41,544 nucleotides of DNA from Burkholderiaceae bacterium (GTDB lineage Bacteria; Pseudomonadota; Gammaproteobacteria; Burkholderiales; Rhodocyclaceae), in the NCBI GenBank assembly GCA_021738065.1, contig JAIPCT010000025.1, positions 1-41,544 of the forward strand, written 5' to 3'. Positions 18,667 through 35,052 of this stretch are shown piece by piece. A program made the position numbers and the translations under genes. The notes below the pieces were generated by a model, which saw nothing but the letters and a program-made list of their open reading frames with translations, had not been told where the DNA came from and did not search any database. Position 1 is the first letter of the stretch; every line of letters begins with the position of its first letter.

Positions 18667-18748
18667 CGTGTCCGTTCGTGGTGAGCTTGTCGAACCACTT
18701 GTCCGTCATTCCCGCGAAAGCGGGAATCCGGCACCAGGCCTGTTTCGT

Positions 18749-18773
18749 CGCCGTAGCACCAGCGCCGACTTTT
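18749..18773 (+). repeat. CACCAGCGCCGACTTTT dispersed repeat, copy 1
   Basis: It reads CGCCGTAGCACCAGCGCCGA, then CTTTT. Intergenic, inside the repeat island after ffh. Confidence 0.8.
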
Positions 18774-18825
18774 CGGGCGCCGTCATTCCGGCGAACGCCG
18801 GAATCCAGTGCTTCTTTGATTCCTT

Positions 18826-18843
18826 CGCCGTATCACCAGCGCC
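18826..18843 (+). repeat. CACCAGCGCCGACTTTT dispersed repeat, copy 2 (partial)
   Basis: CGCCGTATCACCAGCGCC is present, but the GACTTTT end is missing. It is in inverted orientation to copy 3. Confidence 0.65.
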
Positions 18844-18934
18844 AGCGCTTTGCGTCCCTTCGGGAACTTTTCAGGGTGTGCCCTTAACCTGCATGCCGGG
18901 ACTCGCCCCGGCGCGGCCTTGGAAGCGAAGTGAG

Positions 18935-18958
18935 AAAGTCGGCGCTGGTGACACGGCG
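18935..18958 (-). repeat. CACCAGCGCCGACTTTT dispersed repeat, copy 3
   Basis: The plus strand reads AAAGTCGGCGCTGGTGACAC, then GGCG, the reverse complement of the consensus. Confidence 0.8.
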
Positions 18959-19035
18959 ATTTAACGGGGTGGTTCGACAAGCTCACCACGAACGGCTCAA
19001 ACCCACCACGAACGGGTGGTGGATCAGCGCAGAGG

Positions 19036-19650
19036 CTACCTCGGCCCGACCACCCTCGGCCCCCACCCCCATTGCCTCTCCCACGCCCCCCGCACCATGT
19101 TCGGATACTCGGGCTTGCCCAGGCTGCCGTTGTAACGACCGAGCGCGCGGTAGAGGTCGCCCTTCTCGATGTCGAGATAATGGCGCAGGATGGTGCAGCC
19201 GAAGCGCAGGTTGGTGCGCATGTGGAACAGGTTGCTTTTCTTGTCGCCGATCAGGTCCACCCAGAAGGGCATGATCTGCATGTAGCCGCGCGCGCCGGCC
19301 GAGGAGACGGCATATTTTTTGAAGCCGCTTTCGACCTGGATCAGGCCGAGCACCATCTGCGGATCGAGCCCGGCACGCTTGGCTTCGTAATGCACGGTCT
19401 TGAGAAAATCCAGCCGCGCTTCGCGATCCGGCATGCGGCGCGCCAGCCGCGCCGACATTTCCGTCAGCCAGTTGATTTTTTCCTGGAGCGAGGGGAACTG
19501 CGGCTCGGGCGAAGCACGATCGGCAATTGCCGCATGCAGCCCGGCGCGGACGCTGTCTGCCAACGGTTCGTACTGCTGGGCGCCGGCCTGCACCACCACC
19601 GGCAGGAGTGCGGCGGCAAGGCCCAGCGCCAGGCGGCGTATCAGCCGCAC
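19036..19650 (-). CDS. Lytic transglycosylase (SLT domain), secreted
   Basis: The 204-residue protein has a signal peptide (about 1-22, ending VQA), a short linker and an SLT domain from about residue 85. The catalytic glutamate is E107 in IQVESGF, followed by the usual GYMQIMP and a GRYNGSLG motif. It should cleave peptidoglycan with formation of 1,6-anhydromuramyl ends in the periplasm. It starts at a GTG and overlaps the end of proS by 10 bases, so the two are co-translated. Confidence 0.92.
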
Positions 19651-21353
19651 AGTTCCCGCGTTAGGAAGTCCGTCATTTCGCCGGCCGCCAGCATGCGCGC
19701 CTCGGCGTCGCTGCGGCCCTTGTATTCGAGCTTGCCTTCCTTGAGGCCGCGCTCGCCGACCACCACGCGATGCGGTATGCCGATCAGTTCCCAGTCGGCG
19801 AACATCGAGCCGGGGCGCTCGTCGCGATCATCGAGGATGGCGTCGATGCCGGCGGCGAGCAGCTCGGCCAGCAGCGCGTCGGCGGCCGTGCGCACGGTCT
19901 CGGACTTGGCGTAATTCATCGGTACCACGACGACGGAAAAGGGCGCGAGGCTGGCGGGAAAGACAATCCCGCGCTCGTCATGGCCCTGCTCGATGGCGGC
20001 GCCGACGATGCGCGACACACCGATGCCGTAGCAGCCCATTTCCATCACCTGATCCTTGCCCTGTTCGTCAAGGTAAGTGCATTTCAGCGCCTCGGCATAC
20101 TTGGTGCGCAACTGGAAGATGTGGCCGACTTCGATGCCGCGGCACAGCTCGAGCGCGCCCTTGCCGTCGGGCGAGGGGTCGCCGGGCACGACATTGCGGA
20201 TGTCGGCCACGCTGGCCGGCGGCGGCAGGTCGCGGCCGAAGTTGACGCCGGTCAGGTGGTAGCCCTCTTCGTTGGCGCCGCACACGCAATCGCTCATGGC
20301 GGCAACGCTGCGATCGGCCACGACCTTGCCGGAGAAGCCGACCGGGCCGATGTAGCCGGGCTTGCTGCCCAGCGCGGCGACGATTTCTTCGTCGCGGGCG
20401 AAGCGGAACTCGCCGATCACTTTCTGCGTTTTGATTTCGTTCAGCTCGTGATCGCCGCGCAACAGCAGCAGGACGAATTCGCTGGCGTCCTCGCGCTCGG
20501 CCATCAGCGCAATCGCCTTGACTGTCTGCGTCAGCGGCAGGCCGAGGAAAGCGGCGACGTCCTCGCAGCGGGTCTTGCCCGGCGTGGCTTTTTTCTCCAT
20601 GGTCGCCGTATCGCCAGCGCCGACTTTTACAGGCGCCACCGCCTCGGCCAATTCCACGTTGGCAGCGTAGTCAGAGTCGGGACAGAAGGCAATTGCATCT
20701 TCGCCAGAATCGGCGAGCACGTGAAACTCGTGCGAACCGGTGCCGCCGATGGCGCCGGTATCCGCCGCCACGGCGCGGAACTTGAGCCCGAGGCGATTGA
20801 AAATGCGCGAGTAGGTGTCGTACATGTTGCGGTATTCGCGTTCCAGGTCGGCGTAGGTGGCATGGAAGGAATAGCCGTCCTTCATCAGGAACTCGCGCCC
20901 GCGCATGACGCCGAAGCGCGGCCGGATCTCGTCGCGAAACTTGGTCTGGATCTGGTAGAAGTGGCGCGGCAACTGCCGATAGCTGCGGATATCGCGGCGC
21001 ACCACGTCGGTGATCACCTCTTCGTGCGTCGGACCGATCACGAAATCGCGCTGATGGCGGTCCTTGAAGCGCAGCAACTCCGGGCCGTATTTCGGGCCGC
21101 GCCCGGATTCTTCCCACAATTCAAAGGGTTGCACCGCCGGCATGAGCATTTCCATGGCCCCGGCGCGGTTCATTTCCTCGCGCACGATGTTTTCCACCTT
21201 GCGCAGGGCGCGCAGACCCATGGGCATCCAGGTGTAGATTCCACCGGCGAGGCGGCGGATAAGGCCGGCGCGCAGCATCAGTTGGTGGCTGACGATTTCT
21301 GCGTCGGAGGGCGCTTCCTTGAGCGTGGAGATGAAAAACTGGCTGGCGCGCAT
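19641..21353 (-). CDS. proS: Prolyl-tRNA synthetase (bacterial type with editing domain)
   Basis: The 570-residue class II synthetase has motif 2 and motif 3 regions of ProRS ([21 protein letters not shown] near 133-153, [13 protein letters not shown] near 440), the INS editing domain between about 225 and 400, and a C-terminal anticodon-binding domain. It charges tRNA-Pro and hydrolyses Ala-tRNA-Pro. At residues about 242-250, just before the editing domain core, the segment KVGAGDTAT is encoded by a copy of the dispersed repeat. It sits in a variable linker, so function is probably kept. The gene is divergent from rppH. Confidence 0.97.
20604..20628 (+). repeat. CACCAGCGCCGACTTTT dispersed repeat, copy 4, inside proS
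   Basis: The plus strand reads CGCCGTATCGCCAGCGCCGA, then CTTTT. On the coding (minus) strand it supplies KVGAGDTA in frame. Confidence 0.8.
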
Positions 21354-21484
21354 GGCAGTAGGCGAAAAGGCGGGAAGGGCGCATTTTACCTTTGGCCGGT
21401 GGATTGCGACTGCGGATACTACGGCTTTCCAGCAAGGCGCGATTGTGAAAGAATGGCTGTCAACTAATCATTGGAATATGCATC

Positions 21485-22015
21485 ATGCTCGATCGTGAAG
21501 GCTTTCGCCCGAACGTCGGCATCGTCTTGGTCAACAGTCGCAACGAGGTGTTTTGGGGCAAACGTATCCGCGAACATTCCTGGCAGTTTCCGCAAGGCGG
21601 CATCAAGAAGGGCGAATCGCCCGAACAGGCGATGCTGCGCGAACTCGAAGAGGAAACCGGTCTCAAACCGGAACATGTCCGGATCATTGGTCGAACCCGC
21701 GACTGGCTGCGCTATGAGGTGCCGAAACACTGGATTCGCCGCGAATGGCGAAGCACTTACCGGGGTCAGAAACAGATCTGGTTTCTGCTGCGCATGGTCG
21801 GCCGCGATACCGACGTCAGCCTGCGCGCCAGCGAACACCCGGAATTCGATGCCTGGCGCTGGAACAGCTACTGGGTGCCGCTGGGCAGCGTGATCGAATT
21901 CAAGCGTGGCGTCTATGAAGCCGCCTTGATGGAACTGGCGCGCTTGCTGTTCGTGCATCCCGAGGAGCGGACGCCGCGCTGGGAATCCGCCGACATACTG
22001 GACGAAAAACCGTGA
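21485..22015 (+). CDS. rppH: RNA pyrophosphohydrolase RppH
   Basis: The 176-residue Nudix protein starts [17 protein letters not shown] as RppH does. The Nudix box [20 protein letters not shown] is at about residues 38-57, and [10 protein letters not shown] is a further family mark. It converts 5'-triphosphate RNA ends to monophosphate, which opens messenger RNA to RNase E decay. It is divergent from proS and overlaps the next gene by GTGA. Confidence 0.95.
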
Positions 22016-22557
22016 ACCGCCTGTGGCTTGTTCTCTTGCTTGCCTTGGCGGCAAACGCCGGCGCGGAGACCGGCGCCGCCATCGGCGGTCCCGGCGCCAG
22101 GGCACTCAGCGAAGCGGAAGAAGAGAGCAAGGTTTTCCGCGAGGAGGCGAGCGAGCTGCCCGCGTATCCGCGTCCCGAAAACCTGCGCGAGTTTTACGTC
22201 AGCGCAGTGGCCAGCAACAAGTTCTATGTGGATGCCAGCACGCTCTCAGTCGGCAACGATGGCGTCGTGCGCTACGTGCTGGTGGTGAAAACCTCGGGCG
22301 GCGCCACCAACGTCACTTTCGAGGGCATCCATTGCGATCAGCACACCTGGAAGATCTATGCGACGGGCCACAGCGACGGCACCTGGAAAAGATCGCGTGC
22401 GCTCAGAAACGACTGGCGCCCAATCGAGAACAAGCCGGTCAACCGGCATCATTCCGTGCTGCGCCACGAACTGTTTTGCCCGATGGGCATACCCATAAAA
22501 AACCCTGACGAAGGCCGCAACGCCTTGCGTCTGGGCAAGCATCCCGAAGCCAACTGA
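22012..22557 (+). CDS. CNP1-like family protein, secreted
   Basis: The 181-residue protein starts at a GTG that overlaps the rppH stop. It has a signal peptide (about 1-18, ending NAGA) and a domain with [20 protein letters not shown] and [15 protein letters not shown] that matches the CNP1-like family, found mainly in betaproteobacteria. Its function is unknown. It is probably periplasmic and co-transcribed with rppH and coq7. Confidence 0.82.
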
Positions 22558-22573
22558 CGCACGGGTGACCGGA

Positions 22574-23194
22574 ATGCTCGACGCCCTCATCCCCGAAATC
22601 GACAAAGCACTGCGCGCCGTCTTTGCTTCCGCGCCGACGCGTCGCGCGATGCCCGGCGCCGATCTTCCGGAAAGCGCGATGAGCGATGCCGAGAAGCGCC
22701 ATGCCGCCGCGCTGATGCGGGTCAATCACTGCGGTGAAATCTGCGCCCAGGCCTTGTATCAGGGCCAGGCGCTGACATCGGACGATCCTGCCGTCAGGCG
22801 CGAACTGGCGCACGCCGCCGCGGAGGAAACCGAGCACCTCAACTGGACCGAGCGGCGCATCAGCGAACTGGGTGGCCGCAAAAGCCTGCTCAACCCGATC
22901 TGGTACGCCGGATCATTCGCGATCGGCGCCTTTGCCGGAAAATGGGGCGATGCCTGGAGCCTGGGCTTTCTCGCCGAAACCGAGCGTCAGGTCGAGGGCC
23001 ACCTGGAAAGCTACAAGGCCAAACTGCCGCCGCAGGATCGCAAGTCGTGGGAAGTGCTGGAACAAATGAAATTCGACGAGATCCGCCATGCCGAAACCGC
23101 CATGCATTACGGCGCGCGGGAACTGCCGGCACCGGTCAAACTGGCGATGCAGCTTTCATCGAAAGTGATGACCAGGCTTTCCTACTTCGCCTGA
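22574..23194 (+). CDS. coq7: Demethoxyubiquinone hydroxylase Coq7
   Basis: The 206-residue di-iron protein hydroxylates demethoxyubiquinone late in ubiquinone synthesis. Iron ligands are in NHCGEICAQALYQ, EETEHLNW (ExxH), EVEGHLESY-like and DEIRHAETA (ExxH) segments, arranged as two helical repeats. I chose the ATG at 22574, preceded by GGGTGA; a GTG three codons earlier (22565) is also possible. It ends exactly where the converging OsmC-family gene ends, with no spacer. Confidence 0.95.
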   Translation: MLDALIPEIDKALRAVFASAPTRRAMPGADLPESAMSDAEKRHAAALMRVNHCGEICAQALYQGQALTSDDPAVRRELAHAAAEETEHLNWTERRISELGGRKSLLNPIWYAGSFAIGAFAGKWGDAWSLGFLAETERQVEGHLESYKAKLPPQDRKSWEVLEQMKFDEIRHAETAMHYGARELPAPVKLAMQLSSKVMTRLSYFA

Positions 23195-23611
23195 TCAGAC
23201 CTCGACCACCTCGAAGCTGTGGCTGATTGCGGCGGTCTTGCCGAGCATGATCGAAGCCGAGCAATACTTCTCCGCTGAAAGACTCACAGCGCGCTCGACC
23301 ACCTCCGCTTTGAGATTTTTCCCCGTCACCACGAAGTGCATGTTGATGCGGGTGAACACCTTCGGATCGATCTCCGCGCGCTCCGCCTGAAGCTTGACTT
23401 CGCAGCCGCTGACCTCATGGCGCCCGCGTTTCAGAATCAGCACAATATCGAAAGCCGTGCAGCCCCCCGCACCCGCCAGCAGCAATTCCATGGGACGCGG
23501 CGCGAGATTGCGGCCACCCGCATCGGGCGATCCATCCATGCATACCAAGTGCCCACTGCCGGTTTCGGCAACAAAGCTCATTCCCTCATGCCAGCGAACC
23601 GTACATTCCAT
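23195..23611 (-). CDS. OsmC family protein (YhfA-like)
   Basis: The 138-residue protein has the OsmC fold with its two conserved cysteines, in AGGCTAFD (near 52-53) and AEKYCSASIML (near 117). OsmC and Ohr members reduce organic hydroperoxides through such a cysteine pair. This shorter YhfA-like branch is less well characterised, so the substrate is uncertain. GGAG precedes the ATG. It is transcribed toward coq7 with abutting stop codons. Confidence 0.88.
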   Translation of the reverse strand: MECTVRWHEGMSFVAETGSGHLVCMDGSPDAGGRNLAPRPMELLLAGAGGCTAFDIVLILKRGRHEVSGCEVKLQAERAEIDPKVFTRINMHFVVTGKNLKAEVVERAVSLSAEKYCSASIMLGKTAAISHSFEVVEV

Positions 23612-23839
23612 GTCTCACTCCTTCAGGCAACAAAGCGCATTCTATTCGTGCCGCCGATCCGCCCATACCGCAGCGCAACAGAAGTGCTCGATTTCGGCTT
23701 TCCGGAGTTTCGCAGCGCGCGAATCCGGCAGAAATATATTGGCAATTTGTCGCCTTAACTTGTTCTAAATCAATGCAGTTAATTTTATCAATCCTAAACG
23801 AGTTGGCCCGCAACGAAAGCATGGCGCAACGCACAAAAA

Positions 23840-23998
23840 AACCTTGCATTGCAGCAATGACTGTGCAAAAATTTGCTCAACCTGACGCGCATCGAATTGC
23901 AGCAAAAGTAGCCTTGATTCGCGTTTCACCGCTGTCTCCTCCACCCTCCTCCATTGGTGTGGATTAAGCGCAACCCGATTCGGGTTGCGTTTTTTTTC
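23840..23998 (+). ncRNA. Candidate trans-acting small RNA with anti-Shine-Dalgarno motifs
   Basis: The 478-base gap between the OsmC-family gene and tRNA-Lys is more AT-rich than its surroundings and ends in a textbook terminator (23969-23997) with no clear gene before it. Just upstream, CTCCTCC occurs twice, at 23936-23942 and 23946-23952, complementary to Shine-Dalgarno sequences, as in several known small RNAs. The 5' end is not determinable; I place it only roughly. A 64-codon frame (23773-23967) also ends just before the terminator, but it has no ribosome-binding site. Either a small RNA or, less likely, a short messenger. Confidence 0.4.
23969..23997 (+). terminator. Rho-independent terminator
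   Basis: A perfect 9-bp stem (CGCAACCCG, ATT, CGGGTTGCG) is followed by eight T residues on the plus strand. The A/T asymmetry shows that it acts on a plus-strand transcript. Confidence 0.9.
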
Positions 23999-24089
23999 CT
24001 GCATCCCGGACAATGCCGACAGCCCGGCGTGTCCTTCGGCGCAGGTTTGACAGTCGGGGGTGCAGCCGCTAACATTCGCGGCCTCGTGT

Positions 24090-24165
24090 GGGTCGGTAGC
24101 TCAGTCGGTAGAGCAGCGGACTTTTAATCCGTTGGTCCCGAGTTCGAATCTCGGCCGACCCACCA
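24090..24165 (+). tRNA. tRNA-Lys (anticodon TTT)
   Basis: 76 bases with acceptor GGGTCGG/CCGACCC, D arm AGCTCAGTCGGTAGAGC, anticodon stem CGGAC/ATCCG with loop containing TTT, T loop TTCGAAT, and an encoded CCA. Confidence 0.97.
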
Positions 24166-24186
24166 TCAATTCAAATCAAGCTTTCC

Positions 24187-24262
24187 GGGCTGTTAGCTCA
24201 GTTGGTAGAGCAGCGGACTCTTAATCCGTAGGTCGAGTGTTCGAGCCACTCACAGCCCACCA
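24187..24262 (+). tRNA. tRNA-Lys (anticodon CTT)
   Basis: 76 bases with acceptor GGGCTGT/ACAGCCC, the same D arm and anticodon stem as the preceding tRNA-Lys, loop with CTT, T arm GAGTG/CACTC, and an encoded CCA. It lies 21 bases after the TTT gene and is probably co-transcribed. Confidence 0.96.
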
Positions 24263-24271
24263 GTATTCATG

Positions 24272-24299
24272 CGGCCTCCAGCGATGGGGGCCGTTTTTC
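24272..24299 (+). terminator. Rho-independent terminator of the tRNA-Lys pair
   Basis: CGGCCTCC, loop AGCGAT, GGGGGCCG, then TTTTTCT. The stem is 8 bp with one G-T pair. Confidence 0.85.
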
Positions 24300-24595
24300 T
24301 TTGCTGCCAGGCGTAGGTAAATCGTAGCCAGCAGAAACGGGAACCGGCACGGCCGGCGCAAGCGCCGGCCCAGAAGCCCATTCAGAAGGGCAATTTCCGC
24401 CAAATCGCCATTCTCAAGTGATCGGCCGGGTGCCGTGTCCATCTGCGGCGGTGTCGACAATATCCGCGCACCGGCGGAACTTTCACCAAGAGTATGCTTC
24501 GCTACTCCGAAGTCATGATGCCGCGCAGATTTGTTTGTGCGTCCCGTCGGACCGCTTGAGAACATTCGCGGCCGGCCATTAGCAGGAGTTTTCGC
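24300..24595. other. Intergenic region without recognisable gene
   Basis: Between the tRNA terminator and the aminotransferase gene I see only a perfect palindrome GGCCGGCGC/GCGCCGGCC (about 24352-24371) with no T-run. A long minus-strand frame crosses it but runs antisense through the tRNA and the aminotransferase gene, so it is not a gene. The last bases hold the AGGAG ribosome-binding site. Confidence 0.5.
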
Positions 24596-25918
24596 ATGTC
24601 GCCCACGCCGCAGCCCGATCTTGAGCCGTACTGGATGCCGTTTACGCCCAATCGCGCGTTCAAGAAAGCGCCGCGCATCATTCACTCGGCACAAGGCCAC
24701 TACTACACGGATGCAGCGGGCCGCCAGTTGCTGGATGGCTTCTCGGGCTTGTGGACCTCCGGGCTCGGGCATTGCCATCCGAAGATCGTTGCCGCCGTTC
24801 AGGAGCAGGTCGCGCGGCTGGATTACTCGATGGCCTTTCAGGTCGGCAATGACAAGGCCTTCGCCCTGGCCGAAAAAGTCGTGGCACTGGCGCCGGAGGG
24901 GTTCACCCGGGTGTTTTTCACCAACTCCGGCTCGGAGGCGGCCGACACCGCACTGAAAATCGCGCTGGCCTACCATCGCGCGCGCGGCGACGGCCAGCGC
25001 ACACGCCTGATCGGTCGCGAGAAGGGCTATCACGGCGTCAATTTCGGCGGCATGTCAGTGGGCGGCATCCTGCCCAACCGCAAGGCCTTCTCCGCCGCGC
25101 TGCTGCCCGGCGTCGATCACATCCGACACACCCACAGCCTGCCCGATATGGCCTTTTCCAAAGGCCAGCCAAACTGGGGGGCTCACCTGGCCGAGGATTT
25201 CGAACGCGTGGTGCAGCTGCACGATGCGTCGAACATCGCCGCGCTGATTGTCGAGCCGGTCTCCGGCTCGGCCGGCATCATCGTGCCGCCGCTGGGCTAC
25301 TTGCAGCGCCTGCGCCAGATTTGCGACAAGCACGGCATCCTGTTGATATTCGACGAGGTCATCACCGCCTTCGGCCGTCTCGGCGCCGCATTTGGCGCGG
25401 ATCGCTTTGGTGTGGTTCCCGACATCATCACCACCGCCAAAGGGCTGACCAATGGCGTCATTCCGATGGGCGCGGTGCTGGTCAAGGAATCGATCTACCA
25501 GGCGCTGACGAACGGTCCGGAGAACCTGATCGAGTTGTTCCACGGCTACACCTATTCCGGTCACCCGGTGGCCGCCGCCGCCGGACTCGCGACCTTGCAG
25601 GTCTACGAGGAAGAAGAAAGCTTCGCCCAGGCCAGGGCAATTGAAGCCCCGTTTGAAGAACTGCTGCACAGCCTCAAGGGCGAGCCCAACGTCATCGACA
25701 TCCGCAGCATCGGCCTGATGGGCGGCGTTGAGCTGGCGCCGCGCGAAGGCGCCATCGGCGCGCGCGGATTCGAGGTTTTTCTGCAGGCCTTCGAGGACGG
25801 TGTGGTGATCCGCAGCGCGGGCGACATCCTGCAGTTCTCGCCGATGTTCAAGTCATCGCAGGACGAGTTGGAACGCATTGTGGAAACCGTGCGCCGCGCC
25901 TTGCGCAACACGCCTTGA
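24596..25918 (+). CDS. Class III aminotransferase, omega-amino acid:pyruvate type
   Basis: The 440-residue PLP enzyme begins DLEPYWMPFTPNRAFKK, the mark of omega-amino acid:pyruvate transaminases such as the Pseudomonas beta-alanine enzyme. The PLP lysine is K282 in TTAKGLTNG, and D253 in IFDEVITAFGR contacts the pyridine nitrogen. NSGSEAADTALK (110-121) binds the phosphate. It probably moves amino groups from beta-alanine or other terminal amines to pyruvate. AGGAG lies 8 bases before the ATG. It stands alone, so the physiological substrate is not given by context. Confidence 0.9.
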   Translation: MSPTPQPDLEPYWMPFTPNRAFKKAPRIIHSAQGHYYTDAAGRQLLDGFSGLWTSGLGHCHPKIVAAVQEQVARLDYSMAFQVGNDKAFALAEKVVALAPEGFTRVFFTNSGSEAADTALKIALAYHRARGDGQRTRLIGREKGYHGVNFGGMSVGGILPNRKAFSAALLPGVDHIRHTHSLPDMAFSKGQPNWGAHLAEDFERVVQLHDASNIAALIVEPVSGSAGIIVPPLGYLQRLRQICDKHGILLIFDEVITAFGRLGAAFGADRFGVVPDIITTAKGLTNGVIPMGAVLVKESIYQALTNGPENLIELFHGYTYSGHPVAAAAGLATLQVYEEEESFAQARAIEAPFEELLHSLKGEPNVIDIRSIGLMGGVELAPREGAIGARGFEVFLQAFEDGVVIRSAGDILQFSPMFKSSQDELERIVETVRRALRNTP

Positions 25919-26005
25919 GCGCCAACCGCTGCTGACCGCGTCCGTTGCGGCGCGGCCTATCATCACCATCTGCCTTGACGAATTCATCAAGGTCTTGCAG
26001 CAAAT

Positions 26006-26081
26006 TGGTGCGCTCGGCGGGGATCGAACCCACAACCCCTGGCTTCGGAGGCCAGTACTCTATCCATTGAGCTACGAGCGC
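26006..26081 (-). tRNA. tRNA-Arg (anticodon CCG)
   Basis: On the minus strand: acceptor GCGCTCG/CGAGCGC, D arm AGCTCAATGGATAGAGT, anticodon stem CTGGC/GCCAG with loop containing CCG, T loop TTCGATC, encoded CCA. 76 bases. Confidence 0.97.
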
Positions 26082-26181
26082 GCGGTGGATCGGCTTGGAA
26101 GGCCGAGGCGCATTTTACCGCCACCTCGTTCCGTATTGGCTATACTCGGCCAGAATTAAGCCAAACGCACAGGATCGCACT

Positions 26182-26664: not shown

Positions 26665-26687
26665 TCCGGCCCGGCACCGCGCAATGC

Positions 26688-26717
26688 AAAAGGGACCGTG
26701 AGCGGTCCCTTTTCTTT
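26688..26717. terminator. Bidirectional Rho-independent terminator
   Basis: A perfect 11-bp stem (AAAAGGGACCG, TGAG, CGGTCCCTTTT) lies between the converging cytochrome c5-type gene and rep, with T-runs in both directions. Confidence 0.9.
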
Positions 26718-28697
26718 TCAGGTTTTCGCCGCGAGCATCGCCCTCAGTTGCGCCGCCTTGGCGCGCGCGGTGCCGGCGTCCGGCACGATGTTGCCTTGCA
26801 CCGAGGCTTTCTGCGCGGTTTCACCCATTTCAAGAATGAATCGTGAGGGTTCGCGCGGCATCGATTCACGGCCCTGTTTGCGCTTTTCGCACCAGCTCAC
26901 CGTCAGGCTGGCCTGGGCGCGCGTGATGCCGACATACATCAGGCGCCGCTCTTCTTCCATCTTCGCCGGTTCCAGCGAGTCACGATGGGGCAGCAGGCCC
27001 TCTTCGACGCCGATCAGGAAAACATGGCGAAACTCCAGGCCTTTTGCGGCATGCAGGGTGGCGAGTTGCACCGCATCCTGCTCGCCCTCGTTGCCGTCCA
27101 GCATCGACAGCAGGGCCACGGATTGCGCCAGCTCGAGCAGGGTCTTGCCTTCCTCCTCGCCTTTTCTTCGCAGCCACTCGACGAAATCGCACACATTCGC
27201 CCATTTGGTTTCCGCCTCGCGCACCTCCAGCGATTCGAACAACCAGCTCTCGTAGCCGATGGCCTTGATCAGGTCGCCCAGCACCTCGCCGGCCGGTTCT
27301 TTCGCCGCACGCTGCTCCAACCGGTTGATGAAGTCGCCAAACTCGCGCAACGCGGTGCGCTGCTTGGAGTTGAGCTCGGCGTCCAGCCCCGGCGCAAAGA
27401 TGGCGCTGAACAGGCTTTGCTGGCGGCGTCCGGCGGCGCGCCCGAGGGCCTCCAGCGTGGTGCCACCAATGCCGCGCTTGGGCGTGGTGACAGCGCGAAT
27501 GAAGGCCGGATCGTCGTCCTGGTTGGCCAGCAAACGCAGATAACAGGTGATGTCCTTGATCTCGGCCCGATCGAAAAAAGATTGCCCGCCCGATATGACA
27601 TAGGGAATGCGCTGGGCGCGCAGTTGCTGCTCGATGGCTCGCGCCTGGTGGTTGCCGCGATAGAGAATGGCGTAGTCCGAAAACTTGGTGCGCCGCTCGA
27701 AGCGATGCGCGGACAGGCGCGAACTCACCCACTCGGCCTCGTGATCGCCGTCGCGACACGTCTGGACATGAATCGCCTCGCCCAGGCCGTGTTCCGACCA
27801 CAACTTTTTTTCAAACAACTTCGGGTTGTTGGCGATCAGCGTGTTCGCCGCGCTCAGGATGCGGGCGGTGGAGCGGTAGTTCTGCTCCAGCTTGACCACT
27901 TTCAGTGCCGGATAATCGTCGCGCAGCAAGCGCAGATTTTCACTGTCGGCGCCGCGCCAAGCGTAGATCGACTGATCGTCGTCGCCGACGGCGGTGAAGG
28001 AATCGCGCCCCTGCGTCAGCAGTTGCAGCAGCCGATACTGGCCGCGATTGGTGTCCTGGTACTCGTCCACCAGCAAATGCCAGAGCCGGCTGCGCCAGCG
28101 TTGCGCGGCGGCCTCGTGCTCGCTGAAGAGCTTGACCGGCAGGCAGATCAGATCGTCGAAATCCACCGCCTGATAGGCGCGCAGCGTGCGTTCATAGTCG
28201 GCATAGAGCTTCGCCGCCGCGGCTTCGATCTCGTCGGCCGCGTTCTGCAAGGCGGCGGCCGGATCGATCAGCGAGTTTTTCCAGAGCGAAATGCGCGACT
28301 GCAATGCCCGCAAGCGGCCCTTGTCGATGTTGCCCGCAAGCTCCTGAAACAGCGCCCCGGTATCGGCCGCATCGAGGATCGAAAAACCCGGCTTGAGGCC
28401 CAGTGTCGCCGCGTCCTGACGCAGGATGCGTACGCCGAGCGCGTGAAAGGTACTGACGATCAGGCCTTCGGCGCGACCGCCGATCAGCTTGCCGACGCGT
28501 TCCTTCATTTCCTTCGCCGCCTTGTTGGTGAAGGTGATGGCGGCGATTTGCGCCGGTTTGATGCCGTAGTCATTGACCAGCCAGGCGATCTTGTGCGTGA
28601 TGACGCCGGTCTTGCCCGAACCGGCGCCCGCCAGCACCAGCAGCGGCCCCTCAAGGTGTTGTACCGCCTCGAGTTGAGCGGAATTCAGTTTGACCAT
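26718..28697 (-). CDS. rep: ATP-dependent DNA helicase Rep
   Basis: The 659-residue superfamily 1A helicase has Walker A AGAGSGKT near residue 28, TFTNKAAKEM (motif Ia), LLVDEYQDTN (motif II) and VGDDDQSIYAWRGA (motif III), LEQNYRS (IV), LATLHAAKGLEF (V) and YVGITRA (VI). Length and the start MVKLNSAQLEAVQ fit Rep more than UvrD or PcrA. It moves 3' to 5' and helps replication forks pass obstacles. The ATG at 28697 is preferred to a TTG six codons earlier. A dispersed repeat copy lies just upstream. Confidence 0.93.
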   Translation of the reverse strand: MVKLNSAQLEAVQHLEGPLLVLAGAGSGKTGVITHKIAWLVNDYGIKPAQIAAITFTNKAAKEMKERVGKLIGGRAEGLIVSTFHALGVRILRQDAATLGLKPGFSILDAADTGALFQELAGNIDKGRLRALQSRISLWKNSLIDPAAALQNAADEIEAAAAKLYADYERTLRAYQAVDFDDLICLPVKLFSEHEAAAQRWRSRLWHLLVDEYQDTNRGQYRLLQLLTQGRDSFTAVGDDDQSIYAWRGADSENLRLLRDDYPALKVVKLEQNYRSTARILSAANTLIANNPKLFEKKLWSEHGLGEAIHVQTCRDGDHEAEWVSSRLSAHRFERRTKFSDYAILYRGNHQARAIEQQLRAQRIPYVISGGQSFFDRAEIKDITCYLRLLANQDDDPAFIRAVTTPKRGIGGTTLEALGRAAGRRQQSLFSAIFAPGLDAELNSKQRTALREFGDFINRLEQRAAKEPAGEVLGDLIKAIGYESWLFESLEVREAETKWANVCDFVEWLRRKGEEEGKTLLELAQSVALLSMLDGNEGEQDAVQLATLHAAKGLEFRHVFLIGVEEGLLPHRDSLEPAKMEEERRLMYVGITRAQASLTVSWCEKRKQGRESMPREPSRFILEMGETAQKASVQGNIVPDAGTARAKAAQLRAMLAAKT

Positions 28698-28715
28698 GGA
28701 AACATGTACCCGCAA

Positions 28716-28739
28716 CGCCGTATCACCAGCGCCGACTTT
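28716..28739 (+). repeat. CACCAGCGCCGACTTTT dispersed repeat, copy 5
   Basis: CGCCGTATCACCAGCGCCGA, then CTTT, preceded by CGCAA as in copy 6. It lies in the 77-base gap between rep and the DUF4197 gene. Confidence 0.8.
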
Positions 28740-28774
28740 CTAGTATCAGCGCGGCACGCCGCGCATCGTCCGGC

Positions 28775-29455
28775 TCAGCGAAGCGCGCCGAAAACTTTCT
28801 GCGCCAGTCGGCCGGCGGCTTCGGCCGGGTTCTGACGGATGGCCTTTTCCTCTTCGGCGATCATCAGATACAAACCGTCCAGGGCTTTCCGCGTCACATA
28901 GTCTTCCAGATGAGCGTCCTGCTCGCGCACCAGACCGAACTTGGCGGCCTTGCCGGCCAGCTGATCATACTTTTCCGCCAGCTTGACCCTGGCAATGGCC
29001 TTGCGCACCACCGGCTTGAATTTCGCCGCCAGCGGTTCCGAGGTCGTGCGGCGGAAATACTGGGTCGCGGAATCCTCGCCACCCGAAAGTATCCCCTTGG
29101 CGTCTGCCACCGACATGCTCTTGATCGAATTCACCAGCAAGGCCTTGGCCTGCGGCACCGCCGCTTCGGCCGCACGATTCATCGCCGTTATCAACTCGTC
29201 CGCCTGCTGGTTCATACCGAAGCCGCGCAACAGGCCTTCGATTTTCTGCACGCTCTCCGGCAGGGGAATCATCACCTTCGGATTGCCAAGAAAACCGTCC
29301 TGCTTTCCCAATAGCGCAACCGCCTTGCCAGCGCCCTGGGTCAGCGCCTCCTTGAGGCCGCGGTCCGCGTCCCTGACGGAAATGTCATCCAGCGAAAATG
29401 CGTGGGCGCTCGTGGCGAAAAACACGGCGGCAATGAAAGTTAGAACAAGACGCAT
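28775..29455 (-). CDS. DUF4197 family protein, secreted
   Basis: The 226-residue protein has a signal peptide (about 1-19, ending AHA), then an all-helical DUF4197 domain with LSLDDISVRDADRGLKEAL-like start, LGNPKVMIPLP, and ATQYFRRTTSEPLAAKFKP. The function of the family is unknown; it is common in proteobacteria and expected in the periplasm. I chose the ATG at 29455, with GAGGAG 10 bases upstream; the frame is open far upstream without support. It lies upstream of rep on the same strand, with a repeat copy between them. Confidence 0.87.
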   Translation of the reverse strand: MRLVLTFIAAVFFATSAHAFSLDDISVRDADRGLKEALTQGAGKAVALLGKQDGFLGNPKVMIPLPESVQKIEGLLRGFGMNQQADELITAMNRAAEAAVPQAKALLVNSIKSMSVADAKGILSGGEDSATQYFRRTTSEPLAAKFKPVVRKAIARVKLAEKYDQLAGKAAKFGLVREQDAHLEDYVTRKALDGLYLMIAEEEKAIRQNPAEAAGRLAQKVFGALR

Positions 29456-29662
29456 CCTGGAGTTTCTCCTCTGGGCTTTCTGCTTTTGATACTGCGGCGC
29501 ACGCTGCGTCGCCTCGATAGGCGCGGCGGCGAGTCGCTTCGCTGGAGGGTGCCCTGACCAAGCCGGGGCCGCTCGTTGCGAGCAATCAATATACCTTGCT
29601 TGCTGCTTGCTGGCGAATGTTGGGCGACAATCCAGACTCATCACCAATCCGAACCGCCGACC

Positions 29663-30016
29663 ATGACTACGTCTACGCTTTACTACAATCCGAACTGCTC
29701 CAAATGCCACGCGGCCCTGGCCTTGCTGCGGGAGCGGGGAATCGAACCGCAACTGGTCGCCTATCTGGATCAGCCACCGACACCCGCCGAACTGGTCGAC
29801 CTGCTCGACCTCCTCGGCCTGACCGACGCCCGCCAGTTGATGCGCAAAGGCGAAGCCGAGTATGCGGCGCTCGGCCTGGACGATCCCGGCCAGTCGCAGG
29901 AAGCGCTGCGCGCCGCACTGATCGAGCATCCGCAGCTCATCGAGCGGCCGATATTCGTGCACCTTGGCCGCGCGGTGATCGGGCGCCCGCCGGAAAAGGT
30001 GCTGGATATTCTCTGA
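29663..30016 (+). CDS. ArsC-family thioredoxin-fold reductase (YfgD-like)
   Basis: The 117-residue protein starts MTTSTLYYNPNCSKCHAAL; C12 is the likely catalytic cysteine and C15 a second. The rest follows the arsenate reductase pattern: LMRKGEAEY and ERPIFVHLGRAVIGRPPE, with the conserved arginines. It could reduce arsenate with glutaredoxin, but no ars genes lie nearby and YfgD-type relatives have no proven role, so I leave the function open. The gene is divergent from the DUF4197 gene. Confidence 0.88.
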   Translation: MTTSTLYYNPNCSKCHAALALLRERGIEPQLVAYLDQPPTPAELVDLLDLLGLTDARQLMRKGEAEYAALGLDDPGQSQEALRAALIEHPQLIERPIFVHLGRAVIGRPPEKVLDIL

Positions 30017-30050
30017 ACCTGGCGAAAGCCGGTTCCCGAGCGCAACGCAC

Positions 30051-30074
30051 ACCGTATCGCCAGCGCCGACTTTT
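30051..30074 (+). repeat. CACCAGCGCCGACTTTT dispersed repeat, copy 6
   Basis: ACCGTATCGCCAGCGCCGAC, then TTTT, preceded by CGCAACGC. It lies between the convergent ArsC-like gene and lipA. A 9-bp inverted repeat, GAAAGCCGG (30024-30032) with CCGGCTTTC (30076-30084), brackets it. Confidence 0.8.
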
Positions 30075-30082
30075 GCCGGCTT

Positions 30083-31030
30083 TCAGACCACTCCGGCGCC
30101 GCGGGCTTGCTGATCGGCGTGGTAGCTGGAGCGCACCAGCGGCGCCGAGGCGGCGTGCGTGAAGCCCATCGCGGCGGCTTCGCGCGCGTACATGGCGAAG
30201 ACATCGGGATGCACATAGCGCAGCACCGGCAGGTGGTGGCCGGAAGGCGCCAGGTACTGGCCGATGGTGAGCATCTCGACCCCATGGGCGCGCAAGTCGC
30301 GCAGCGTGTCGAGGATCTCGTCGTCGGTTTCGCCGAGACCCACCATCAAACCCGACTTGGTGGGGGTGCCGGGCACACGCACCCTGAAGGCCTTGAGCAG
30401 CTCCAGCGAATTGGCGTAGTCGGCGCCGGGACGCGCCTGCTTGTAGAGCCGCGGCACGGTTTCCATGTTGTGGTTCATCACGTCTGGCGGCGTCGTCGCG
30501 AGAATGTCGAGCGCGATGTCCAGCCGGCCGCGAAAATCCGGCACCAGCACTTCGATCCTGGTGCCTGGCGAATACTCGCGAATCTTCGCGATGCAATCGG
30601 CAAAGTGCCGGGCACCGCCGTCGCGCAGGTCGTCGCGATCGACGCTGGTGATCACCACGTATTTGAGCTTCATCGCGGCGATGGTGCGCGCGAGCTTTTC
30701 CGGTTCCTCGGCGTCGGGCGGCAAGGGCTTGCCGTGGCCGACATCGCAGAACGGGCAGCGCCGGGTGCATAGGTCGCCGAGGATCATGAAAGTGGCCGTG
30801 CCGTTGCCGAAGCACTCGCCGATGTTGGGGCAGGTGGCTTCCTCGCACACGGTGTGCAGCTGATGTTCGCGCAGGATCTGCTTGATCTCGCCGAAGCGAC
30901 CCGCGCTGCTGCCGGCCTTGACGCGAATCCAGTCAGGCTTTTTCAGGGCGGTCGTGGCCGGCACGATTTTTATCGCGGTCTTGCCATATGCGCGCGAAGT
31001 CTTGGCCTCGCCTTTCTGTTTGGTCGTCAT
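30083..31030 (-). CDS. lipA: Lipoyl synthase
   Basis: The 315-residue radical-SAM enzyme inserts two sulfurs into octanoyl groups on lipoyl domains. The auxiliary cluster cysteines are C62, C67 and C73 ([12 protein letters not shown]), the radical-SAM cysteines C88, C92 and C95 (CTRRCPFC), and RSSYHA near the C terminus supplies the serine ligand. The ATG at 31030 overlaps the lipB stop (ATGA); longer frames upstream lie inside lipB. It is the last gene of the lipB-lipA set. Confidence 0.97.
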
Positions 31031-31650
31031 GATGTGGCTTCTTCCAGTTGCCGGGCCAGATGTTCCGCAAGTGCGTCGCCCACCTTCACTGTATCGCATT
31101 CGCCCTCGCAGTTTGGCAACAGAGCGCGCAACTGCGTCACCGCCAAACCCTCGTAACCACAAGGGTTTATCGCGTCATACGGCCTCAAGTCCATGTCGAC
31201 ATTGAGCGAAACGCCGTGATAGCTGCAGCCGTGCTTGATGCGCAAACCCAGAGCGGCAATCTTGGCCTCGCCGACATACACGCCGGGCGCGCCGTCGCGA
31301 CGCGCCGCACTGACACCGTAGTCCGCCAGCAGATCGATCACCGCCTGCTCGATGCGTTGCACCAGGCCGCGTACCGTGATCTGGCGGCGACGCAAATCGA
31401 GCAGCAGGTAGGCGACGACCTGGCCGGGGCCGTGATAGGTGATCTGGCCACCGCGATCGATCTGCACCACGGCAATGCCGAGGTCCTTGAGCAGGTGCTC
31501 GGGCTTGCCCGACAGGCCCTGGGTAAACACCGGCGGGTGTTCGCACAGCCAGATCTCGTCGGCCGTGTCGTCGCTGCGTGTCGCGGTGAAGTCCTGCATC
31601 GCGGCGAAGACCGCCGGATAGTCGATCCGGCCCAGCCGTTTGACGATCAC
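31027..31650 (-). CDS. lipB: Octanoyltransferase LipB
   Basis: The 207-residue enzyme moves octanoate from acyl carrier protein to lipoyl domains. [21 protein letters not shown] (about 70-90), KIAALGLRI with the catalytic lysine, and [14 protein letters not shown] with the catalytic cysteine are present. It starts at a GTG overlapping the ybeD-type stop (GTGA) and overlaps lipA by ATGA. Confidence 0.96.
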
Positions 31651-31907
31651 AGGACGACTTTCACCATCGGGTGAGCGGTCAGTTCGCGATACAAGGCGTC
31701 GAGCTGTTGCTGGGAAACGGCCCGCACCGTGCAGGTCAGCGATAGATACTTGCCGCCTTTCGAGGCGCGCATCTCGACCAAACCCGGATCAAAATCCGGT
31801 GCATGCGCTAGCACCACGGCAACAATGGACTGGGCAAAATCCGCTTCCGCCGCGCCCATGATTTTCAGTGGAAAATCGCAGGGAAACTCGAGCAGCGTTT
31901 CTGCCAT
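31647..31907 (-). CDS. ybeD: DUF493 family protein (YbeD-like)
   Basis: This 86-residue protein has the YbeD fold pattern: LLEFPCDFPLKIMG, then SKGGKYLSLTCTVRAVSQQQLDALYREL and HPMVKVVL at the end. YbeD lies beside lipB in Escherichia coli as well and is thought to be regulatory, but its function is not established. It is coupled on both sides: its start overlaps the aminotransferase stop (TGATG) and its stop overlaps the lipB start. Confidence 0.9.
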   Translation of the reverse strand: MAETLLEFPCDFPLKIMGAAEADFAQSIVAVVLAHAPDFDPGLVEMRASKGGKYLSLTCTVRAVSQQQLDALYRELTAHPMVKVVL

Positions 31908-32776
31908 CACGCACGCATCACGGTTGCCTTGAACTCCTGGTACCACGCGTACATCCGGGCGAATACCGGCCCCGGCGTAGCGCCAGCGCCGACTTTTCCG
32001 ACGGCGCGGCCGTCGAGCATGACAACCGGCAGCACTTCCTTGGTCGAGGAGCACATCCAGAGCTCGTCGGCGCCGCGAGTTTCAGCTTCGGTGATGTCGC
32101 GCACCTCGTGCGGCAGGCCGTGCTGCGCGGCGAGCTCAAGGATGATGTCATAGGTAATGCCCGGCAGCATCAGATGATTCTTGATCGGTGCCAGCAACAC
32201 GCCATCGCGGATGACGAAAATCGACGAGGCCGAACCTTCGGTCAGAAAACCGTCGCGGAACAACACGGTTTCAACGCAGCCGGCCGTGACCGCGAGCTGG
32301 CGCAGCAGGCAATTGGCGAGCAGCGACGTGGTCTTCAGATCGCAGCGCAGCCAGCGAATATCGGCGGCCGAGACCACCGCGATGCCTTGTTCGCGCTGGC
32401 TCGCCGGTGGCGTCAGCATCGGCTCGGCGAGGATCAATACGGTCGGAATGACCTCCGGCGGAAAGGCGTGGTTGCGCACCGCCATCGGTCCGCGCGTGAC
32501 TTGAATGTAGATTGACTGGTCTTCCCATTCAGCCTCAAGGGCCATTTGCGTGACGAAACCGATCCATTCGTCGGTGCGATGCGGATTGGCCAACTGGATG
32601 CCATCCAGGCTTTGCTGCAGGCGGGCCAGATGCTGCTCAAGGCGGAAAGGGCGCCGCGAGTAAACCGGGATCACCTCATACACGCCATCGCCGAACAGAA
32701 AGCCGCGATCCATGACCGACACCCGCGCTTCCTGCGCCGGCAGCCATTGACCGTTGAGAAAAACCCGAGCCGTCAC
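31907..32776 (-). CDS. dat: D-amino acid aminotransferase (class IV)
   Basis: The 289-residue fold-type IV PLP enzyme has the lysine in CDLKTTSLLANCLL (near residue 150), LTEGSASSIFVI and ELWMCSSTKEVLPV. It is closest to D-alanine transaminases, which make D-glutamate and other D-amino acids; its place next to dacA fits wall metabolism. A branched-chain or aminodeoxychorismate enzyme is less likely. I chose the GTG at 32776, which overlaps the dacA stop (GTGA); a GTG at 32803 is possible. Residues about 260-268 (GKVGAGATP) are encoded by a repeat copy. Confidence 0.85.
   Translation of the reverse strand: MTARVFLNGQWLPAQEARVSVMDRGFLFGDGVYEVIPVYSRRPFRLEQHLARLQQSLDGIQLANPHRTDEWIGFVTQMALEAEWEDQSIYIQVTRGPMAVRNHAFPPEVIPTVLILAEPMLTPPASQREQGIAVVSAADIRWLRCDLKTTSLLANCLLRQLAVTAGCVETVLFRDGFLTEGSASSIFVIRDGVLLAPIKNHLMLPGITYDIILELAAQHGLPHEVRDITEAETRGADELWMCSSTKEVLPVVMLDGRAVGKVGAGATPGPVFARMYAWYQEFKATVMRA
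31974..31997 (+). repeat. CACCAGCGCCGACTTTT dispersed repeat, copy 7, inside dat
   Basis: The plus strand reads GGCGTAGCGCCAGCGCCGAC, then TTTT. On the coding strand it supplies KVGAGATP about 22 residues before the C terminus. Confidence 0.75.
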
Positions 32777-33903
32777 TGGAAGTACAGCCGCAGGCTGTCC
32801 CACAGACGGCCGAAGAAACCTGCCACGGCAATATCGCTTTGAGCGACGACCGGGTACTCACCCCAGGCTTGGTCGCCGACGCTCAGCGTCAGCGTGCCGA
32901 CCACACTGCCGGCGGCAACAGGAGCGATCAGGGGTTGCCGGCTAACCAGCGTGGCCTTCACCTTGTCGGCCATGCCGCGCGGCACGGAGATCACGAAATC
33001 TTCGTTGAAGCCTGCGGCGACCGTGTTTTGCGCGCCCTTGAACACTTTCAATTGCGAGACCGCCTGCGCTTTGTCATAAAGTTTCACCGATTCAAACGCG
33101 GTAAAGCCCCAGTTGAGCAGATTCAGCGAATCCTGCGCGCGGGCCGACTCGGATTCGGTACCGAGCACCACCGAAATCAGACGGCGTGGACTGCGCATGG
33201 CGGTCGCGATCAGGCAATAGCCCGCGGCGTTGGAATGCCCGGTTTTCAATCCGTCGACCGTCGGGTCCGCCCACAGCAGCCGGTTTCGATTGTGCTGGCG
33301 GATGCCGTTGTAGGTGTATTCCTTGACGGCGTGCAGGGCATGGATTTCCGGATGATCGCGAATCAGGGCGGCGGCAAGGCGCGCCATGTCGCGCGCCGTG
33401 GAATGGTGGCTCGGCGTCGCCCCGTCGAAAAAACCGCTGGCATTGAGGAAGTTGGTGTCCTTCAAGCCCATGCGCTGCGCGGTGCGATTCATCATGCCGG
33501 CAAAGGCGTCCTCACTGCCGCTGATCGCCTCGGCCAGGGCCACCGACGCGTCGTTGCCGGACTGGATCACCATGCCCTTGAGCAGATCATCGACCGACAC
33601 CGTCTTGTTGACCGGAATGAAACTGCGCGAACCCAGCGTGCGCCAGGCCCGCTCGGAGACCGTGACCGGCTGTTGCAGGGACAGGGTTTTCTGCACCAGC
33701 GCATCGGCCACCAGATAGGTGGTCATCACCTTGGTCAGCGACGCCGGCTCCATTCGCGTATCGGCCTCGTGCGCGGCCAGCACCTGACCCGTAGCGTAAT
33801 CCATCAAAATCCAGGCGCGGGCGCTGAGGGTCGGCGCGGGAATCGGTTGGGCGTAGCTCGCTGCAAAAGGCAGCAGCGCCAGAAACAAGGCAAAAAATCG
33901 CAT
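32773..33903 (-). CDS. dacA: D-alanyl-D-alanine carboxypeptidase (PBP5/6 type)
   Basis: The 376-residue protein has a signal peptide (about 1-18), the S11 peptidase motifs SLTK (S55, K58), SGN (115-117) and KTG (near 213), a PBP5-type C-terminal beta domain, and a C-terminal amphipathic helix (GFFGRLWDSLRLYFQ) that holds it to the inner membrane. It trims the terminal D-Ala from wall pentapeptides. The ATG at 33903 is preferred to an upstream start that would spoil the signal peptide. It is followed by dat with a 4-base overlap. Confidence 0.96.
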   Translation of the reverse strand: MRFFALFLALLPFAASYAQPIPAPTLSARAWILMDYATGQVLAAHEADTRMEPASLTKVMTTYLVADALVQKTLSLQQPVTVSERAWRTLGSRSFIPVNKTVSVDDLLKGMVIQSGNDASVALAEAISGSEDAFAGMMNRTAQRMGLKDTNFLNASGFFDGATPSHHSTARDMARLAAALIRDHPEIHALHAVKEYTYNGIRQHNRNRLLWADPTVDGLKTGHSNAAGYCLIATAMRSPRRLISVVLGTESESARAQDSLNLLNWGFTAFESVKLYDKAQAVSQLKVFKGAQNTVAAGFNEDFVISVPRGMADKVKATLVSRQPLIAPVAAGSVVGTLTLSVGDQAWGEYPVVAQSDIAVAGFFGRLWDSLRLYFQ

Positions 33904-33957
33904 ATCGGATTCGCTTTCAGGGGTAAGCCGCAATTATAGACGGCTCGGTCTGCCCCC

Positions 33958-35052
33958 TCAGCGTTGCACGCGGACCGATCTCATGCCCAGGCTCTCGCGC
34001 AGCAGGATTGCAGCCTGTTCCGCGGCGGCTGCGTCAAGCCAGGGACCCAGCTGGACCCGGAAGACGGAGCCGGCGGACTGGATCACAAGTTTTTGCGCCA
34101 GGCTGCCAAGTTCGCGCGTCAGCCGTGCGTGCAGGGCCTCGGCGTTGTCGCGATTGCCGAAAGCGCCGAGTTGAAGGAAGTGGCCACCGGCCGCTTCCAC
34201 CCGCGGCAAGGGAGTGTCGGGTTCCGTCGCGTCGATTTGCGTGATCGCTTCCTCGGTTTTGATCGGCGAGACGGCGACCAGAGTCTGCCCCGGCAAGACG
34301 CTTTCCACCTCGACCAAAGTGCTGCCCTCGCCGATATAGTCCAGCTTGTAGGCTGCCGTCCAGGAAAGATCGATCAGCCGTCCGGCATGGAAGGGACCGC
34401 GATCATTGACGCGCACCACCACCGATTTGCCGTTGGCCGGATTGCTGACGCGGACATAGGACGGAATCGGCAAGGTCGGATGCGCCGCGGTCATGCCGTA
34501 CATGTCGTAGGGCTCACCGCTCGACGTCTTCTGTCCGTGAAACTTGCGTCCGTACCAGCTGCCGATACCGCGCACCTTGTAGGGTTTGATCTCGCGCTGC
34601 GGCACATAGCTTTGTCCCAGCACCGTATAGGGATTGTTGGCAAAACGGTGCAGCGGTTCGACGCGCGGCGTCGCGTCGGGAATTGCGTCGATATCCTCGG
34701 GTTGCGCGTCGCCCGGGCCGTCGTCCTTGTAGAAGCCGCCGCTGTACTTGATGGCCGGCTTTTTTCCTTGTGCCTTGAAAGTCGGCGCTGGCGAAACGGC
34801 GTCCGTCTCGCCGCGGTCGATCACCGGACGCGGTGCCTGCGTGCCGCAGGCGGCAAGAAACAGGGCAGCTAACGGAATGAGCGCGCGCCAGCTGACTTTT
34901 GGCGCAAGACCGGTCCGAGGCCCGGCTGCGCGCTCGCCAGGAGCACACCGACGTTCCTCATCGTTCGAAGCGCCCCGCGACTGCCGAGCACAGCGCGCTT
35001 GCAGCTTTCCCATCGCGAGAGGGGAGTAGGGGAAGCGAGCGTTCATTTTCAT
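33958..35052 (-). CDS. rlpA: Septal-ring lipoprotein RlpA with SPOR domain
   Basis: The 364-residue protein has a lipoprotein signal (WRALIPLAALFLAACG, lipid-modified C69), a double-psi beta-barrel RlpA domain (about 150-240, with GIGSWYGRKFHGQKTSSGE and VNDRGPFHAGRLIDLS), and a C-terminal SPOR domain (about 290-364). RlpA-type proteins bind or cleave denuded peptidoglycan. The ATG at 35052 overlaps the rodA stop (ATGA), but it leaves about 50 Arg-rich residues before the signal peptide. No later start is visible, so the N-terminal stretch is odd and may be inserted DNA. Residues 85-93 are encoded by a repeat copy. Confidence 0.88.
   Translation of the reverse strand: MKMNARFPYSPLAMGKLQARCARQSRGASNDEERRCAPGERAAGPRTGLAPKVSWRALIPLAALFLAACGTQAPRPVIDRGETDAVSPAPTFKAQGKKPAIKYSGGFYKDDGPGDAQPEDIDAIPDATPRVEPLHRFANNPYTVLGQSYVPQREIKPYKVRGIGSWYGRKFHGQKTSSGEPYDMYGMTAAHPTLPIPSYVRVSNPANGKSVVVRVNDRGPFHAGRLIDLSWTAAYKLDYIGEGSTLVEVESVLPGQTLVAVSPIKTEEAITQIDATEPDTPLPRVEAAGGHFLQLGAFGNRDNAEALHARLTRELGSLAQKLVIQSAGSVFRVQLGPWLDAAAAEQAAILLRESLGMRSVRVQR
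34778..34801 (-). repeat. CACCAGCGCCGACTTTT dispersed repeat, copy 8, inside rlpA
   Basis: The plus strand reads AAAGTCGGCGCTGGCGAAAC, then GGCG. Relative to the gene it lies opposite to the copies in proS and dat, so here it encodes AVSPAPTFK just after the lipidated N terminus. Confidence 0.78.

Follow-up and report, generated by a model that had tools for sequence, protein, structure and literature searches.

A short repeat recurs between genes and, in frame, inside genes in a 41,544-nucleotide stretch from a Burkholderiaceae bacterium (GenBank assembly GCA_021738065.1, contig JAIPCT010000025.1; hereafter the window), which raises the question of what kind of element can occupy such different places. 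A preliminary description of the window called the repeat mobile-looking, proposed that the DNA itself and not a peptide is maintained, and likened it to the in-frame elements of Rickettsia. The repeat is real, and comparisons within and beyond the genus suggest that it behaves like a DNA uptake sequence. We put the probability at roughly 0.7 that it is one, with dialects, akin to the DNA uptake sequences (DUS) of Neisseriaceae and the uptake signal sequences (USS) of Pasteurellaceae; its receptor and uptake are what we infer by this analogy.

The genome in question comprises 3,395,880 bases in 148 contigs, and copies were characterized in a 419,513-base sample of it, made up of the window and 20 stretches from copy-bearing contigs, whose copy density is perhaps biased upward. 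The unit is a 24-bp word, CGCCGTNNCRCCAGCGCCGACTTT, followed by T or C, a correction to the roughly 25 bp first proposed. It has sharp edges with background base composition outside them, and its 24 conserved bases are arranged in two blocks, with two free positions. Sites with zero, one, two, three, and four mismatches number 33, 40, 18, 6, and 6 in the sample (103 in total), while the reversed word gave one site at four mismatches and none below. With each half of the word estimated on sites picked by the other half, its information content is about 26.5 bits. The consensus is also enriched genome-wide, as had been anticipated: the 14-base core CCAGCGCCGACTTT has 286 exact matches (154 on the plus and 132 on the minus strand) against none for the reversed control. 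In the window alone, a 17-base core has 11 matches at three or fewer mismatches, compared with 0.27 expected (standard deviation 0.53; maximum of 100 shuffles, 2), although three of these 11, the 3-mismatch matches at 13960, 18522, and 19444, are probably due to chance. Such strong over-representation, dispersal, and occurrence on both strands are characteristic of uptake sequences.

Copies in related genomes have dialects. The form ending in CCAACTYT (A dialect) occurs 250 times in genome G001, 317 times in G027, and 289 times in G015, and at most four times in each of the other 28 genomes of the genus. At 97 orthologous comparisons of A-dialect sites with G-dialect genomes, from which gapped partners and partners with more than four mismatches were dropped and whose pairs are non-independent, the G-dialect base was G in 91, A in four, and T in two. 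A further form, ending in CCGACTCT, is found 125 times in G004 versus six times in the genome of the window, whereas the GACTTT form is found 49 versus 286 times. In genus g34 the inner part differs (ending in GGGACTGACTTT), with the length and the ends CGCCGT-N12-GACTTT kept, and copies in G132, of genus g43, mostly start with T. These sequence comparisons indicate that copies change in concert between congeners, dialects replacing each other at orthologous sites as they do among uptake sequences. Counts of k-mers in 40- to 108-kb samples revealed no other dialects in G016, G032, G034, G036, G168, G095, or G110; the sister-genus samples for G091 and G061 were taken from contigs known to carry copies. 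A genome without the 24-bp word, G035 (L391-L395), has a different repeated word, CTTTGCGAGGAGC, at four places in 87 kb.

The frame CGCCGT-N12-GACTTT was scanned for in 297 genomes from 68 genera of family f1, probably Rhodocyclaceae, where the reversed control reached up to 7 matches. High counts occur in eight of the 68 genera: g1 (92 to 335 matches in 10 of 13 genomes, with 26 in G001, 33 in G027, and 10 in G016), g32 (639), g62 (518), g34 (190 to 441 in nine of 11 genomes, 44 and 4 in the other two), g43 (117 to 378 in four of 11 genomes, 57 in one, and 0 to 15 in six), g47 (76 in one of two genomes), g70 (82 to 311 in all four), and g88 (160 to 278 in all nine). Weaker counts were obtained in g69 (22) and g90 (24 in one of six genomes, 1 to 6 in the rest), and the remaining genera have 0 to 8. 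Two g43 genomes, G072 and G132, are low by this count yet contain 114 and 227 cores. The g1 genome G016 retains five exact cores and a single site at four or fewer mismatches in 85 kb. Among 399 genomes of the order, none outside f1 has a high count save G395 (family f38), with 14 copies, the next highest being 5; both inner types (ending in CAGCGCC and GGGACT) are present among ten listed copies of G395.

The main rival explanation is that an intracellular protein that organizes or processes DNA (a nucleoid, segregation, or recombination factor) binds the word, with sites under selection for chromosome function. Some reader acting in trans has to exist under any explanation, a two-block pattern of 24 conserved bases fits a protein footprint, and copies lie both in and between genes. 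Against this, the word is absent from most genera of the family and nearly lost in the congener G016, hundreds of copies have changed in three congeners, and no strand or regional bias was detected in genome G002, where the first 1.508 Mb, the part complete for both strands (the listing covered 62 of the 81 sites on the plus strand and 38 of the 88 on the minus strand), holds 28 plus and 38 minus sites whose dispersion did not differ from random. We consider this explanation unlikely. The idea of a replication-polar or regional motif was likewise dropped, having given no signal within the listed part of G002.

The next alternative, favored in the preliminary description, is a small mobile repeat with in-frame insertion into genes. 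Copies are indeed dispersed in both orientations, one tandem array holds seven of them, and short hairpin-like segments do interrupt some. An inserted element should nevertheless leave a gap of its own length at sites lacking it. We compared 406 orthologous pairs within the genus, those of 549 that passed a 70% flank-identity filter, the pairs being non-independent through shared sites and overlapping loci. No partner was 22 to 27 bp shorter among either the 61 word-less ones (six or more mismatches) or the 147 degenerate ones (three to five mismatches). Twenty of the word-less partners were of equal length, 10 were shorter by 3 bp, some were longer, and five were shorter by 32 to 43 bp, which fits no fixed insert; 67 of the degenerate partners were of equal length. 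For ProS we examined 30 loci, the best-scoring of 121 genomes (the genome of the window, three congeners, and 26 genomes of other genera), together with 19 loci from the genus. In 22 of the 26 other-genus orthologues the linker has 7 to 10 mismatches to the word, is of equal length, and lacks the repeat-encoded residues, in line with the earlier expectation that relatives would be without them. Three others (L437, L438, and L440) carry the word with one to three mismatches, and in L444, which comes from a carrier genus, the segment at the site is altered and longer. In addition, copies have neither terminal repeats nor conserved flanks in the genome sample. Equal-length linkers and the lack of a 24-bp gap indicate that the word was written over existing sequence and did not insert; insertion is thus already contradicted at the species level, and a mobile repeat appears very improbable.

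The Rickettsia model fits poorly for the same reason. In-frame palindromic elements of Rickettsia are longer than the word, palindromic, and inserted. The word shares with them that a DNA repeat also lies in frame inside genes, but it is 24 bp long, replaces sequence of equal length, and shows no inverted repeat in its consensus when read directly; with neither empty sites nor palindromic structure, we rejected membership in this class. Copies thus arise in place, by point mutation or recombination. For Neisseria, recombination has been argued as the origin of DUS copies (PMC2397512).

Of the 97 copies at three or fewer mismatches in the genome sample, 52 lie in genes, one lies across a gene end, and 44 are intergenic (seven of them supplied by the tandem array), although 86.3% of the sample is coding. 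The coding fraction and the frame assignments come from a home-made gene model, which missed rlpA. A deficit of this kind is found for uptake sequences, which occupy permissive sites. The genic copies are distributed over all six frames (24, 11, 8, 4, 3, and 2 copies), the commonest readings being KVGAGDTA (24) and AVSPAPTF (11). Genic and intergenic copies have alike base profiles, free positions included, and mean mismatches of 0.96 and 0.98, respectively, so coding cannot explain the word. Because genic and intergenic copies are equally conserved, whatever their orientation or frame, what is maintained is the DNA rather than a peptide, as had been proposed; a protein motif is ruled out. A regulatory or terminator element, which the 44 intergenic copies in a mostly coding sample might suggest, is the least credible alternative given the equally conserved 52 genic copies in both orientations and six frames. 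Repetitive extragenic palindromic (REP) sequences and bacterial interspersed mosaic elements (BIMEs) are extragenic palindromes. They are, like the word, short, dispersed, and present in many copies, but genes hold more than half of the word copies, and the unit lacks palindromic structure. One near-match, at about 2599-2622 of L095, lies in a 920-amino-acid open reading frame (ORF) at RRIVSADYSQVELRI, which resembles what we take to be a conserved motif of DNA polymerase I; the protein sequence itself may approach the word there.

Copies so alike, on both strands and in any frame, that replace sequence and change dialect in concert need a trans-acting reader and a biased copying process. If the word is an uptake sequence, it would be recognized by a surface DNA receptor, perhaps a minor pilin, during natural transformation. 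Uptake would favor DNA bearing it, which would then recombine at the homologous locus, so that good copies would be kept and poor ones overwritten. The word would then accumulate, without inserting, at permissive positions (intergenic DNA and protein linkers), whatever the strand or frame. Drift of receptor specificity in a lineage would be followed by hundreds of copies, producing a dialect. That the reader of the word is an uptake receptor, and that transformation drives the pattern, are both inferred here.

Candidate components are present. ComEC family proteins and PF16732 pilins, the latter matches being a mixed pilin set, each occur in 30 of 31 genomes of the genus. The three A-dialect genomes share a 155-amino-acid pilin (loci L515, L526, and L538) that is 96 to 97% identical and has four cysteines in the region from residue 60 to residue 110; among the other loci compared, full-length matches are 36 to 41% identical. 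It is a possible lead to the receptor. The weak match on contig C37 of the window's genome is a different pilin-like protein.

Several observations weigh against the uptake reading. ComEC and PF16732 pilins are each also found in 25 of 30 genomes outside the genus, both being as common in word-less relatives, and G016 keeps ComEC with so few cores; being present nearly everywhere, competence genes were ruled out as a discriminator of carriers. The word is patchy over genera, with carriers both near g1 (82 to 85% ProS identity) and far from it (63 to 76%). At 24 bp it is longer than the 9 to 13 nt usual for uptake sequences (PMC12616744). Over 7.4 kb, identity between G015 and G027 is 92.6%, but no grouping of G001 with them was seen, although it has the same dialect. 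Seven copies stand head to tail with a 24- to 25-bp period in contig C38 of the window's genome (L100, 11466-11636), and no close facing pairs of the kind found in terminator-type DUS and USS were present among 35 neighboring pairs less than 500 bp apart, the closest being at 74 bp. Finally, phage-like contigs carry the word, two of 10 tested near portal or capsid genes.

Exact copies are present in at least 120 viral stretches from IMG/VR (L244-L363), in some cases close to genes for portal, major head, or replication proteins. Four of 10 proteins beside viral copies match PHROGs families, portal and major head protein among them, so some phages do carry the word. In these stretches, chosen for one copy, 61 further copies were counted in 1.12 Mb, a lower density than the 91 in 0.42 Mb of the window's genome at the same cut-off, though both samples are biased.

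The likeness to known uptake sequences is considerable. DUS of Neisseriaceae have dialects (PMC3630211), are continuous words of up to about 13 nt (PMC12616744), and are associated with permissive core-genome sites and molecular drive (PMC2397512). Like DUS, the word is dispersed over both strands in hundreds of copies or more, in genic and intergenic DNA and in permissive places, with dialects a few bases apart and concerted maintenance (PMC3630211, PMC2397512). Unlike DUS, whose receptor is ComP, it is 24 bp long and has no word in common with them, and its role in uptake is putative. Like USS, it is a long, discontinuous motif that is underrepresented in ORFs and has multiple sequence types within a family (PMC12616744, PMC2346458). 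In H. influenzae, 65% of USS are in ORFs against about 86% coding sequence, with an orientation bias within genes (PMC2346458). USS consist of a 9-nt core and weak AT-rich tracts up to 32 nt, whereas nearly all 24 bp of the present word are strongly conserved and GC-rich.

According to a 2025 paper, such tags are known only from Neisseriaceae and Pasteurellaceae (PMC12616744). We found no report of uptake sequences in Rhodocyclaceae or Sulfuritalea in the open PMC literature, where the motif letters gave only a 12-base match in a mouse study. Set beside these systems, the word behaves like an uptake sequence; both its letters and its architecture are new. It seems fairly likely that it represents a third, independently evolved system for uptake of self-DNA, in a third family, with an unusually long word, conserved over its whole length, in which the frame CGCCGT-N12-GACTTT is fixed and the inner 12 bases form the dialect. 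This would add a further family, whose members probably live in the environment and in which one frame encloses two or more inner parts that differ strongly. If so, the ends and the inner part of the word may be read separately, and the patchy occurrence would reflect receptor and word being repeatedly lost or exchanged among genera. It would also provide an independent case for testing the competing accounts of why such sequences are there (selfish drive, sex with kin, or receptor bias). DNA that has moved between genera would bear a natural tag, and natural transformation would be expected in the word-carrying group. In G135, which has a 3.66-Mb chromosome, all five exact cores lie on one strand within 41 kb (L493-L495, C1 1455001-1510000) in a stretch with metal-efflux-like and multicopper-oxidase genes, which was perhaps acquired from a word carrier.

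Every copy listed in the preliminary description is present in the window, and its readings in proS, dat, and rlpA hold (Table 1). Its count of eight copies in 16 kb stands, with a further in-gene copy outside that span, and the copy it termed partial is a word split by a 22-nt segment.

Table 1 Copies of the 24-bp word and following base in the window
Copy	Position	Strand	Location and reading
1 mismatch	3781..3805	-	in ORF 3293-4837 (+), reads IVGAGATA; beyond the span described earlier
0 mismatches	18749..18773	+	intergenic, between ORFs 17311-18666 (+) and 19036-19650 (-)
Interrupted	18826..18871	+	left part 18826-18843, 22-nt segment 18844-18865, right part ACTTTT 18866-18871
0 mismatches	18934..18958	-	same intergenic region as the 18749 copy, facing it
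0 mismatches	20604..20628	+	in proS (19641-21353, -), reads KVGAGDTA
0 mismatches	28716..28740	+	intergenic, upstream of UvrD-like ORF (-)
1 mismatch	30050..30074	+	intergenic, between ORFs 29576-30016 (+) and 30083-31162 (-)
1 mismatch	31973..31997	+	in dat-like ORF 31907-32803 (-), reads KVGAGATP
0 mismatches	34777..34801	-	in rlpA-like ORF 33958-35559 (-), reads AVSPAPTF

The facing pair 18749/18934 and a facing pair in L099 have an equal spacing of 162 bp; a composite element built from such pairs was ruled out, the DNA between the copies being unrelated. The same intergenic region contains an inverted 27-bp pair (18672-18698 and 18969-18995, 100% complementary) and a direct repeat pair (18703-18729 and 18780-18806), and two patterns derived from these repeats have two and three matches in the genome sample. 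Several same-strand copies with a spacing of 125 to 316 bp occur in L150 (229-5904).

Interruption of the word by short hairpin-like segments is found at a near-identical point, between GCGCC(G) and ACTTT or ACTCT, in the window, in L108 (8657-8695, a second occurrence of the interrupted form in the same genome), and in L062, L065, L110, L112, L139, L206, L222, and L075. The segments are of at least two sequence types, and several have lengths that are multiples of three (21, 24, 27, and 39), counting the G as lost or kept. They may represent another small element, one with the word as its target.

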